Assembly (NCBI GenBank): GCA_016288295.1
Contig: JAEEYV010000048.1
Location: 1-32,596 of the forward strand
Source: Alphaproteobacteria bacterium
Lineage (GTDB): Bacteria > Pseudomonadota > Alphaproteobacteria > RF32 > CAG-239
Direction of reading: 5' to 3'
Length of the DNA: 32,596 nt
Shown here: positions 5,075-16,946 of the stretch, in pieces
Position numbering within the stretch: the first letter of the stretch is position 1
Layout of the letters: every line of letters starts with the position of its first letter
Program-made: the position numbers and the translations under genes
The notes under the pieces: model-generated
Database searches by the model: none
Told to the model about the DNA's origin: nothing
What the model saw: only the letters and a program-made list of their open reading frames with translations

Positions 5075-5250
5075 CAAAATGCAGATAACGGCTTATCTAA
5101 AGCCAAAATTGCAAAGAGAGAAAATTCATGTACTTCTATGTACACTAAAATTTTCTCTCTTTTTATTTTGGCTTTATCTAAACCATTCTTTGCATTTTGT
5201 GAGGGCAAAAGGTGTTTTTTATTATTTGCCTCGTTCTTCGAGTTTTTTCG
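5075..5250 (+). repeat. Long-hairpin repeat element, copy 1 (hairpin 5075-5199 plus tail)
   Basis: Near-60-nt imperfect arms caaaatgcag...catgtac / gtacacta...tgcattttg; related element at 15137. Confidence 0.85.
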
Positions 5251-5269
5251 ATATCGAGGAAAAAGAGAG

Positions 5270-5370
5270 AAATTTTCTCTCTTTTTATTTTGGCTTTATC
5301 TAAACCATTCTTTGCATTTTGTGAGGGCAAAAGGTGTTTTTTATTATTTGCTTCGTTCTCCGAGTTTTTT
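5270..5370 (+). repeat. Direct duplication of right arm and tail of the hairpin element (matches 5148-5248)
   Basis: 101 bp aligned at an offset of 122 bp with two visible mismatches. Confidence 0.92.
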
Positions 5371-5806
5371 AGCGTTCTAGAATAAATGTGACCGGACCAT
5401 CGTTAGTTAAACTTACCTGCATATCGGTTTGAAAAATTCCGTTTTCGGTCGGGACGCCATGGTTTTTGAGTTGAGCGGAAAAATATTCGTATAAGGGTTT
5501 GGCTTCTTCAGGATGGGCGGCATTATCGAATCCGGGGCGGTTGCCCTGGGTACAGTCGCCGGCGAGTGTAAATTGAGAAATAACAAGGGCAGATCCCTTA
5601 ATATCTTTAACAGAAAGGTTCATTTTGCCCTGTTTGTCTTCAAATATACGTAAGTTTGAGGCTTTGCGAGCAAGATAATCAGCCTGTTGTTTTGTGTCAC
5701 CTTTGACAATGCCAATAAAAATGAGTAGCCCTTGTTTGATTTGTCCGACGAGTTCGTTGTTGACGGTAACAGAGGCATTTTTGACACGTTGCAACAGTAG
5801 TTTCAT
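5369..5806 (-). CDS. dtd: D-aminoacyl-tRNA deacylase
   Basis: MKLLLQRVKNASVTVN...GLLIFIGIVKGDT...ALVISQFTLAGDCTQGNRPGFDNAA...GVPTENGIFQTDMQVSLTNDGPVTFILE. Confidence 0.95.
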   Translation of the reverse strand: MKLLLQRVKNASVTVNNELVGQIKQGLLIFIGIVKGDTKQQADYLARKASNLRIFEDKQGKMNLSVKDIKGSALVISQFTLAGDCTQGNRPGFDNAAHPEEAKPLYEYFSAQLKNHGVPTENGIFQTDMQVSLTNDGPVTFILER

Positions 5807-11744: not shown

Positions 11745-12191
11745 ATGAGAACTTCGAAAATTATAAAAGAAGATTTGAAGCCCCTTGTTAGCGGAATTAA
11801 GGAGCTTGGAAGAACAGTTTTTTTCTTGTGTACGACTTTCTTCGCAATCATTATGATTGTTATTGAAGTGTGCCAGCTTATCAGTGAACCATCAGGTATA
11901 TTGGTGAGCTCTACCGAACTTGTAGCTCTGCACGTCTATGTCCCATTGGGGTTGTTTTTTTCTGCGTATGTGAGCTTAAGAAATGAACGACCTTTCTTTG
12001 AGTGGCCTGATGTATCAATACACGTTATTACCTGGTCGTGGGGGTTGTCTGTTGTTGTACTGCGTATCCTGCCGAATTTGGTGTGGGTGTCCAACTTCAT
12101 CCTGATTGCCCCGGTAGCGGTGCTTCTGGTTGTGTTGGGTAATAAGTACATCAAACACTGGAAAGAAAATCGAAACGAGCCGGAAGTATAG
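11745..12191 (+). CDS. Small multi-pass membrane protein, unknown
   Basis: MRTSKIIKEDLKPLVSG... with several hydrophobic segments; start at 11745 lies downstream of the candidate promoter. Confidence 0.65.
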   Translation: MRTSKIIKEDLKPLVSGIKELGRTVFFLCTTFFAIIMIVIEVCQLISEPSGILVSSTELVALHVYVPLGLFFSAYVSLRNERPFFEWPDVSIHVITWSWGLSVVVLRILPNLVWVSNFILIAPVAVLLVVLGNKYIKHWKENRNEPEV

Positions 12192-12198
12192 TATTTCG

Positions 12199-12662
12199 AT
12201 GATTGAAATTCGCAAAAAAGCCGTGGATAAGAAAAAGGATCTTCCAAAATGCCTTAAATTAGCCTATCTTGCCATGTATGTAATACTTGTTCTATCAGCA
12301 TTTTCGTTGGTAGGTGTGGTAGAGGCTCATATTGAAGGCAGGTTATCGTTGCCAAATTTTCGTTGGTAGGTGTGGTAGAGGCTCATATTGAAGGCAGGTT
12401 ATCGTTGCCAATGCCATTTGCAATAGTGTTGTATGTTGATTTAGCATTAATGGCTGTTCTGCCATGGGGTGACGACAATATATGTACTATGATGGTGGCC
12501 TCTATAGGTGCCTTTTGGTGGTTTGCTGTTTGGGAACTTGAGATTGGTGCTTGGAGTGATTATGTTTGTGGCGGCATTGCTGCTATTCCGGCGGTGGCGA
12601 TAATTGGCTATCTGGCCTTTCGTTTTTGGCAAGTCAATTACAAATACAAGAGAAGAGGCTAA
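12199..12662 (+). pseudogene. Small membrane-protein gene interrupted by 56-bp tandem duplication (two partial ORFs 12199-12369 and 12363-12662)
   Basis: Deleting one 56-bp copy joins MIEIRKKAVDKKK...LSAFSLVGVVEAHIEGRLSLP to MPFAIVLYVD...YKYKRRG in one 136-codon frame. Confidence 0.82.
12300..12411 (+). repeat. Perfect 56-bp tandem direct duplication (12300-12355 and 12356-12411)
   Basis: attttcgttggtaggtgtggtagaggctcatattgaaggcaggttatcgttgccaa occurs twice back to back. Confidence 0.97.
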
Positions 12663-15138: not shown

Positions 15139-15305
15139 AACGCGCATAACCGCTCATCTAAAGCCAAAATTTCAAAGAGGAAAAATTCATGTACTACTGG
15201 GTACACTAAAATTTTTCCTCTTTTTATTTTGACTTTATCTAAACGGTTCTTCGCGTTTTAAGGTAAAGCGTGTCATATTATTTAGGTCATTCTCCGAGTT
15301 TTTTC
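15137..15305 (+). repeat. Long-hairpin repeat element, pgk copy (hairpin 15137-15259 plus tail)
   Basis: Arms aaaacgcgcataaccgctcatctaaagcc...gtac / gtac...ggctttatc-like...cggttcttcgcgtttt; same architecture and tail (ttctccgagttttttcgg) as after rpoA. Confidence 0.85.
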
Positions 15306-15330
15306 GGCATTGAGTTTTAAGTTTGTATAA

Positions 15331-15370
15331 CAAAAAGAGACTGACCAGTAATTTGGACAGTCTCTTTTTG
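15331..15370. terminator. Bidirectional terminator between pgk and the ACP gene
   Basis: caaaaagagact...agtctctttttg, 12-bp perfect stem. Confidence 0.85.
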
Positions 15371-15384
15371 TTAATCAAGAGAAA

Positions 15385-15636
15385 TTAATTCGAATCATTA
15401 ATGACCTCAGTCAACCGTTGTGCGATTTGACCAACTGTCTCGTCTTCCCAATGCACAGTGTCATCTTCTGGTATTTTAATGTTCCACTTGATCTCGCACT
15501 TCATTATGATAGTGATAAGATCTAAGCTGTCGAGGCCACTGTCATAAAGTTTGGTGTTGTTGTCAAAATTGCCAAGGAACTCAGAAAGTATGTCATTGAG
15601 TCCTTCGGTGACTTCTGATAATGTTGCTTTGCTCAT
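15385..15636 (-). CDS. Acyl carrier protein-like
   Basis: MSKATLSEVTEGLNDILSEFLGNFDNNTKLYDSGLDSLDLITIIMKCE; DSLD phosphopantetheine site; start at 15636. Confidence 0.85.
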   Translation of the reverse strand: MSKATLSEVTEGLNDILSEFLGNFDNNTKLYDSGLDSLDLITIIMKCEIKWNIKIPEDDTVHWEDETVGQIAQRLTEVINDSN

Positions 15637-15729
15637 ATGAATAATATCAAGAGAAAATAATAAGTTAATTAATTCTGTTTGTAGCGGTACTATAAATAAA
15701 AAAAATTTTTTTGTCAAATTATTTTTCTA

Positions 15730-16620
15730 TCAGTTCATGTAGTCCTCAATTTTAAATGTTTTGAGTCTTATCAAAAATTTGAAAATAGCAAAGTTTTTGG
15801 AAGAGCCGACTATATCACGTTTGAAAAAATCATCTATTGTATATTGATCAACTGTTCGATCGGCTTTACCTCCCGGAACTTTTTTATTTATATAATATTC
15901 GAGGCTTTTACAATAATAGTGATTTATTTGGATTTCGGGATTTTCAATGTTACAATTTAGTTTTGTAAAAACTTGTGCATATTGCGGGCATATTTTATTG
16001 AAAAATTTCCATCTTGCAAAATGAGGCATTGAAAAATTTTTTATCATTTTAATAAAATGTGTATTTAAAAACATTTTGGGTAAGGATAAGCCGTTTCCGC
16101 AGGATGTAAATCTTTCTATAAGCGGAATCGTATAATCTTCATGAATTATACCGCCGGATGTAAAAGCTTTCCAAAAAGCCAATACGCAAGGGAATTTTTC
16201 ATATTTTTTAAGCCAATCTTTTACGTTATCGTATTTTATCGGTACAATAAATTCATCAGCATCAGCAAATAAAATCCAATCACTTTCATCATGAAAACGT
16301 TCAAGACAATTGTTATATGCGGACATTTGGCCGGCAACTTTATCCCAATTAATTAGTGTTACAAAGCCTTTTTCAATATAGGGTTTTAATATTTTTTGGT
16401 AATTATCTGAAGAAAAATTATTATAAAGATAAAAGTGTTCAAATCCGACAATTAAATGATATTTGATCCATTCATCTAAATACATTGCTTCATTTTTGAA
16501 GATAAGACATATTGATGCGTAATATTTTTTGTTCATTTTAGGTTTGTGAAAAAACAATCGTATGATAATGTTATTGAGCTGCAATCGAATAAATTTGCAT
16601 ATTGCTATTATCTTTTTCAT
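15730..16620 (-). CDS. Glycosyltransferase, GT92/GT2-like
   Basis: YASICLIFKNEAMYLDEWIKYHLIVGFEHFYLYNNFSSD... and DWILFADADEFI; AAGGA RBS upstream. Confidence 0.85.
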   Translation of the reverse strand: MKKIIAICKFIRLQLNNIIIRLFFHKPKMNKKYYASICLIFKNEAMYLDEWIKYHLIVGFEHFYLYNNFSSDNYQKILKPYIEKGFVTLINWDKVAGQMSAYNNCLERFHDESDWILFADADEFIVPIKYDNVKDWLKKYEKFPCVLAFWKAFTSGGIIHEDYTIPLIERFTSCGNGLSLPKMFLNTHFIKMIKNFSMPHFARWKFFNKICPQYAQVFTKLNCNIENPEIQINHYYCKSLEYYINKKVPGGKADRTVDQYTIDDFFKRDIVGSSKNFAIFKFLIRLKTFKIEDYMN

Positions 16621-16646
16621 ATATAGTTTTCCTTGTTATAATTAAC

Positions 16647-16830
16647 AAAAAAAGCCGCTTGATGAGAAGCGACCGGAAGTTGAGAACTATACGAAAGAAT
16701 AGTGCGACATATTGACCGCAAAGGCGTATTTTGCCGCCTTCCGGTCAGTTGACCAGAAGGCATCAAATGCACTTGATGCGAGTGCTTTCGTAGAGGTTCT
16801 CACACCTCGAACAGGCTCATCATCCTGTCT
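16647..16830 (-). ncRNA. Structured RNA locus: small RNA (6S-like?) or switching leader of the glycosyltransferase-ACP pair
   Basis: Promoter TTGACA-17-TAGTAT, nested long-range helices, terminator gucgcuu-cucauc-aagcggcUUUUUUU. Confidence 0.65.
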
Positions 16831-16836
16831 GATTTG

Positions 16837-16865
16837 ATACTATTGAGATGTTTGGATAATGTCAA
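16837..16865 (-). promoter_or_regulatory. Sigma70-type promoter for the structured RNA
   Basis: Minus strand TTGACA - 17 bp - TAGTAT. Confidence 0.8.
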
Positions 16866-16895
16866 TATTTATTAATGTTGCAAAAATTGTATTAG

Positions 16896-16928
16896 AAAAA
16901 AGCACCGTGTTGAAGCGGTGCTTTTTTT
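16896..16928 (-). terminator. Terminator of eno
   Basis: aaaaaagcaccg...cggtgctttttt hairpin. Confidence 0.85.
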
Positions 16929-16946
16929 GATGCGAACCTTGAAAGA

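Follow-up and report, generated by a model that had tools for sequence, protein, structure and literature searches.

The C4 antisense RNA of phages P1 and P7 (RF01695), found with c4-a1b1 (RF03163, listed in PMC2864571), has a known tripartite layout; it is processed by RNase P and acts on targets (PMC5320573). IsrK (RF01394), at anrP-antQ of Gifsy-1, is a promoter-proximal small RNA with a terminator, a translationally inactive read-through mRNA and alternative structures (PMC4825925). A third RNA, sRNA-Xcc1 (RF02221), was detected as a single band of ~100 nt with RACE ends that give 88 nt (PMC2996969), and lies upstream of symE in integron cassettes (PMC12444791). Our literature search, which did not extend to a 2011 paper on sRNA-Xcc1 and HrpG, returned no paper linking sRNA-Xcc1 to C4.

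Here we describe an RNA on the minus strand of a 32,596-nucleotide stretch of alphaproteobacterial DNA (hereafter the window) that has points in common with all three. Its parts follow the same order as those of C4 with c4-a1b1, namely a 5' hairpin with a pairing loop, a second strand, a core carrying both complements, and then a gene. The likeness to IsrK lies in being a promoter-proximal small RNA with a terminator and alternative structures; an Rfam scan finds no homology between the two (15.0 bits, threshold 50), and the action in trans known for IsrK as an activator is only a possibility for the window RNA. The closest kinship is with sRNA-Xcc1, as detailed below.

Transcription unit and candidate identities

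The RNA precedes a gene for a glycosyltransferase of family 92 (GT92; 15730-16620, minus strand, 296 aa, PF01697, E 2.9e-22), which is followed in the same unit by a gene for an acyl-carrier-protein-like product (15385-15717, minus strand, 110 aa, PF00550, E 5.9e-7). An initial annotation, made from the DNA letters, had proposed a minus-strand promoter of the form TTGACA-17-TAGTAT, and this promoter is present at 16837-16865 (TTGACA at 16865-16860, 17 nt, TAGTAT at 16842-16837) with a consensus score of 10/12. Among aligned relatives, T/TA..T is enriched at -34/-33 and at -12/-11/-7 relative to the RNA start. An initial count of -10 boxes was no higher than in shuffles (35 vs 36.2), although the box positions nonetheless cluster at -12/-11, and the promoter signal is clearer in the aligned composition than in this count.

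The whole leader RNA (16648-16831, minus strand) matches positions 1-189 of R1, a covariance model built from an alignment of 22 copies, all from the gut family, with 168.8 bits. The intrinsic terminator, GUCGCUU..AAGCGGC followed by seven U residues (16647-16673, minus strand), had also been read from the letters and was recovered by a terminator scan, which places the hairpin at 16674-16653 ahead of the U-tract. The minimum free energy of a 193-nt transcript is -71.3 kcal/mol compared to -48.1 +/- 3.9 kcal/mol for shuffles (z -5.9), and none of 200 shuffles folded as well. The GT92 start codon does follow the U-tract closely, as had been claimed, with a measured spacing of 26 nt in place of the 27 nt given before.

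The RNA had been put forward as new, and no Rfam family reached its threshold in a scan of the window, the RNA included. 6S RNA had been named as the main known alternative, and the length and the rod-like minimum-energy fold do resemble it. The genome, however, carries its 6S RNA on another contig (C24:17871-18024, 50.3 bits), the 6S model (RF00013) finds no match at the RNA locus even at E 10, and the RNA occupies a multi-copy leader position. We therefore exclude 6S as the identity of this RNA and regard it as wildly improbable. We set aside GcvB and several other sub-threshold Rfam matches, which either overlap the terminator of eno or fall on the opposite strand. The C4 model matched nothing near the RNA at E values up to 10, nor anything in the genome that carries the RNA. 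With looser limits, sRNA-Xcc1 is the model that best matches the RNA, with 30.8 bits against a threshold of 53.

Conserved helices and their competing partners

From its 5' end, the RNA opens with the P1 hairpin (16810-16829, minus strand as are all helices below; 16824-16829 with 16810-16815; fitted helix 1), whose loop UGAUGAG (16816-16822) pairs with the terminator loop (16660-16666; z 10.5). The P2 hairpin (GAGG/CCUC, 16793-16808; fitted helix 2) presents the loop UGAGAAC (16796-16802, "a1"), which pairs with GUUCUCA (16681-16687, strand S or "a prime"; z 30.6) in a pseudoknot helix, PK1, that is 99.3% paired with 110 double-change cells. Next to it, the X strand UACGAAAG (16785-16792, "b1") pairs with the P6 loop CUUUCGUA (16690-16697, "b prime"; z 40.2). 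The P4 hairpin (16781-16785 with 16769-16773; fitted helix 3) has a loop, GCAUCA (16774-16779), that pairs with UGAUGC (16760-16765; z 12.2), the whole spanning 16760-16785. The core is closed by P5 (16671-16746), formed by GACCGGAAG (16738-16746) and CUUCCGGUC (16671-16679), which is fitted helix 4 and is 99.5% paired, with double changes in seven of its nine pairs. Within the core lie an arm made of P7 (16733-16737 with 16704-16708) and P8 (16723-16725 with 16715-16717), fitted helices 5 and 6 (16704-16737), with a conserved AAAAUA/CAAUAU internal loop of invariant alignment columns, and the P6 hairpin (CUAU/AUAG, 16687-16702; fitted helix 7), whose loop is the partner of X.

Pairing in the eight fitted helices reaches 97.1% across 70 distinct aligned copies, with 466 double-change cells compared to 113 from shuffles, and sliding the helix partners abolishes their covariation. 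As the alignment had been fitted to these eight helices, five unfitted interactions were tested separately by comparing the best contiguous duplex within each copy to that formed with partners from other copies, using 109 non-redundant copies; the resulting z values account for relatedness through the thinning of similar copies only. For all five interactions, each of 500 shuffles stayed below the observed value, while four unrelated segment pairs used as controls gave z values of -0.8 to 1.0. The three long-range helices of the initial annotation, among them the one that joins the 5' UGAUGAG to the terminator loop, are thus conserved with covariation in relatives.

The alternative helices are likewise conserved in the alignment of homologues. 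The 5' strand of P5 (16738-16746) has two conserved and mutually exclusive partners, the 5' strand of H1 (16750-16761) and the 3' strand of P5 (16671-16679). H1, a hairpin of GCCUUCUGGUCA and UGACCGGAAGGC (16736-16761; z 13.6), is present in the minimum-energy fold and excludes P5. Two partners had been proposed for UGACCGGAAGGCG, and of these the upstream one (16750-16761, H1) held up while the downstream one (16713-16726) is weakly supported (z 3.9). The strongly conserved downstream partner is instead the 3' strand of P5 (z 23.8), P5 being among the fitted helices. The last three nucleotides of this strand also form the base of the terminator, as its lower three pairs, so P5 and the full terminator are mutually exclusive and P5 is a candidate antiterminator. 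The extended terminator is itself 94.4% paired with 65 double-change cells. In the window copy, H1 together with the full terminator is the lowest-energy fold, at -71.3 kcal/mol, and forcing P5 gives -58.1 kcal/mol, a cost of ~13 kcal/mol with pseudoknots not counted.

The RNA thus has the features predicted for an attenuator leader, a terminator in a 5' UTR with a conserved competing helix. Of the riboswitch or attenuator-type leader first suggested, the attenuator part is well supported by sequence comparison, since the position ahead of a gene, the terminator, the exclusive helices and an anti-Shine-Dalgarno strand are all conserved. A new class of metabolite or ion riboswitch, with the pseudoknotted body as aptamer and P5, H1 and the terminator as expression platform, would also account for the complex conserved fold, for the highly conserved unpaired AAAAUA/CAAUAU and CAC nucleotides, for exclusive helices that resemble such a platform, and for the tandem copies and many different but functionally related downstream genes found in relatives. 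We nevertheless judge a riboswitch quite unlikely, as the core is related to sRNA-Xcc1, whose loci show a pairing logic of antisense type rather than a ligand, and as the controlled genes are diverse, with no common pathway that would name a ligand.

Copies, controlled genes and kinship with sRNA-Xcc1

In a DNA search, 26 of 58 genomes had matches, often several each, and all of these genomes belonged to the same family. With R1, three strong copies were detected in the genome of the window, and matches were found in 133 of 141 family genomes (1-18 copies each) as well as in the single searched genome from another family of the order. Across the class, R1 matched 27 of 296 genomes, four in the same family and 23 in other alphaproteobacterial families, mostly small genomes. 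The named records that carry the RNA are mostly gut or rumen metagenome-assembled genomes labelled Alphaproteobacteria, proteobacterium, Rhodospirillales or Azospirillum. A mobile or phage element was rejected as the identity of the RNA, since its core pattern was absent from the viral contigs searched and blastn of the RNA against phage records returned no match. Copies also appear in two assemblies labelled Gastranaerophilales (L126, L198), possibly mislabelled or contaminated bins. At three loci (L127:2396-2834, L082:1185-1641 and L121:6696-7890), two copies lie on the same strand ~70-800 bp apart, like tandem leaders; the upstream copy in L082 has no obvious gene start directly after it.

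A start codon lies 10-39 nt past the element in 130 of 168 distinct copies, and for some copies the open reading frame starts ~200 nt away or the terminator is not clear. The controlled genes encode outer-membrane beta-barrels, opacity-like porins, PEGA lipoproteins, pilin-like proteins, glycosyltransferases and helix-turn-helix regulators, and many others have no family assigned. All three copies in the genome of the window precede polysaccharide genes (GT92, RgpF and RgpF). One sub-set stands before pilin-like SMVEMLGV proteins (L094, L104, L115, L129, L164, L167, L170 and others), where the predicted start is ~200-230 nt past the element and the stretch in between is unexplained.

By two reciprocal models, the 3' half of the RNA is a relative of sRNA-Xcc1. 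Six more copies among 20 further loci scanned match sRNA-Xcc1 on the core, the best with 43.5 bits (E 0.00018), and full-length matches of R1 in turn occur at three RF02221 loci (best score 34.8 bits, E 1.8e-6, R1 E-values being rough). Both the window copy and this best relative fall short of the RF02221 gathering score of 53 bits. The alignments span positions 1-87 and preserve the 9-bp closing stem, two arms and 6-nt linker of RF02221, so that the window core, in the order P5-P7-P8-P6-S-P5', aligns to the whole 87-nt model. The likeness extends outside the Rfam model, as sRNA-Xcc1 loci also contain the pairings of the P2 hairpin loop with S and of X with the P6 loop. The two differ in that the window RNA has a terminator after the core and no repeat of the P6-loop target at the ribosome-binding site, and in that its relatives often precede envelope genes, whereas sRNA-Xcc1 precedes antirepressor-like phage genes. 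An integron attC site was considered for the RNA, because sRNA-Xcc1 is integron-borne, and inspection by eye revealed no R''/R' boxes.

RF02221 itself occurs in 58 of 399 Pseudomonadota genomes. At its loci, the pairing strands are matched both upstream (S, z 10.8; P6 loop, z 4.0) and downstream (S, z 6.7; P6 loop, z 9.3), the downstream repeat being found here and lying outside the Rfam definition. Several of the proteins encoded downstream look like phage antirepressors of the Bro-N, Rha and KilA-N types, as judged by eye from their sequences and not by family search. With pairing segments matched both ahead of the RNA and at the ribosome-binding site of the following gene, often an antirepressor-like one (L250-L279), sRNA-Xcc1 appears to be an antisense RNA of the C4 type. 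C4 loci share with RF02221 loci the matching of both pairing segments upstream and downstream, and they share with the window family the complementarity of the a1 and b1 leader segments to a' and b' in the core. R1 matched none of the three C4 loci searched.

Ribosome-binding-site complementarity and a putative gate

The ribosome-binding site of the GT92 gene (16622-16634, minus strand) consists of AAGGAA (16629-16634) and AACUAUA (16622-16628). The second of these, positioned past the Shine-Dalgarno sequence and ahead of the start codon, has its complement in UAUAGUU (16685-16691) of the window copy. Across copies, S together with the P5 3' strand is complementary to the ribosome-binding region of its own gene above that of other copies (z 9.1), and the same holds within two sub-groups (z 4.1 and 5.3). 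Segments of the 5' half, and the loops, gave z values near zero against their own ribosome-binding site, and the strand intervening between P4 and P5 gave a weaker 2.8. Among controlled genes, 51% carry GGAAG, the complement of CUUCC, in the ribosome-binding region, compared to 9% of other open reading frames at the same loci. Shared descent could explain part of this Shine-Dalgarno correlation. Unlike C4 and sRNA-Xcc1, the window family has no second target set at the ribosome-binding site: no copy of the P6-loop target was found there (Y against the downstream region, z -0.7, alphaproteobacterial set), which leaves antisense action in the C4 manner unsupported for this family, and a search of the coding region revealed no C4-like second target.

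Comparative sequence evidence thus places the P5 3' strand in P5, in the terminator base and in pairing with the ribosome-binding site of the next gene. We propose that the RNA is probably a cis-acting leader that gates the next gene and is related to phage-associated RNAs of the C4/sRNA-Xcc1 type. When H1 forms, the P5 3' strand would be free and the terminator complete; in any read-through RNA, the P5 3' strand and S could cover the ribosome-binding site, so that expression would be OFF at two levels. When P5 forms, the terminator would be shortened and the ribosome-binding site free, giving the ON state. In the window copy the lowest energy belongs to H1 with the terminator, so OFF is likely the default, with the direction of switching taken from energies that ignore pseudoknots. 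Candidate ON triggers would include a trans copy of the short RNA (as for IsrK or C4), a protein, a small molecule, or RNase P processing on the 5' side of P5, and the output would often be an envelope-related gene.

The RNA could also be a stand-alone trans-acting small RNA of the C4 or IsrK kind, in which the ~185-nt RNA or a processed core pairs with the ribosome-binding sites of other mRNAs and the nearby gene is one target among them. It has its own promoter and terminator, the short forms of sRNA-Xcc1 and the RNase P processing of C4 provide precedents, and a gene for RNase P RNA is present in the genome. Most copies, however, lie directly before a start codon with complementarity tuned to their own ribosome-binding site, pointing to cis action, and the loop codes differ among the copies inspected, which makes this explanation unlikely.

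If the cis-acting leader is correct, it adds an abundant unannotated class of regulatory RNA to the Alphaproteobacteria of animal guts, and sRNA-Xcc1, so far regarded as trans-acting with only predicted targets, gains a testable target in the ribosome-binding site of the next gene. The RNA looks like the switches of phage antirepressors, as if a phage-style gate now stood on bacterial surface genes. More tentatively, an antisense architecture of the phage-immunity type may have been domesticated into genome-wide cis leaders (up to 18 per genome) that use private pairing codes to set which surface proteins and polysaccharides are displayed by a host-associated bacterium, possibly with cross-talk among copies or with incoming phages; this would be a reuse of phage immunity-RNA logic on bacterial surface genes.

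The module of RNA, GT92 and acyl-carrier-protein-like genes (15139-16946) separates eno from pgk. Two congeners (L311, L312) have these two genes side by side, with ~220-330 bp and no RNA in the interval, and in a third congener an RNA with 93% identity, again near eno, precedes a PEGA lipoprotein gene. With RNA-free eno-pgk intervals in two congeners and different cargo in a third, the RNA and its cargo gene look like a movable or exchangeable unit. The PEGA lipoprotein that is the controlled gene in G001 was sought in the genome of the window, and this search, run without a positive control, found none. At two places elsewhere in the window (5079-5380 and 12130-12662), the translations of overlapping or neighbouring open reading frames share 15-26 residues, which points to short direct repeats in the DNA.
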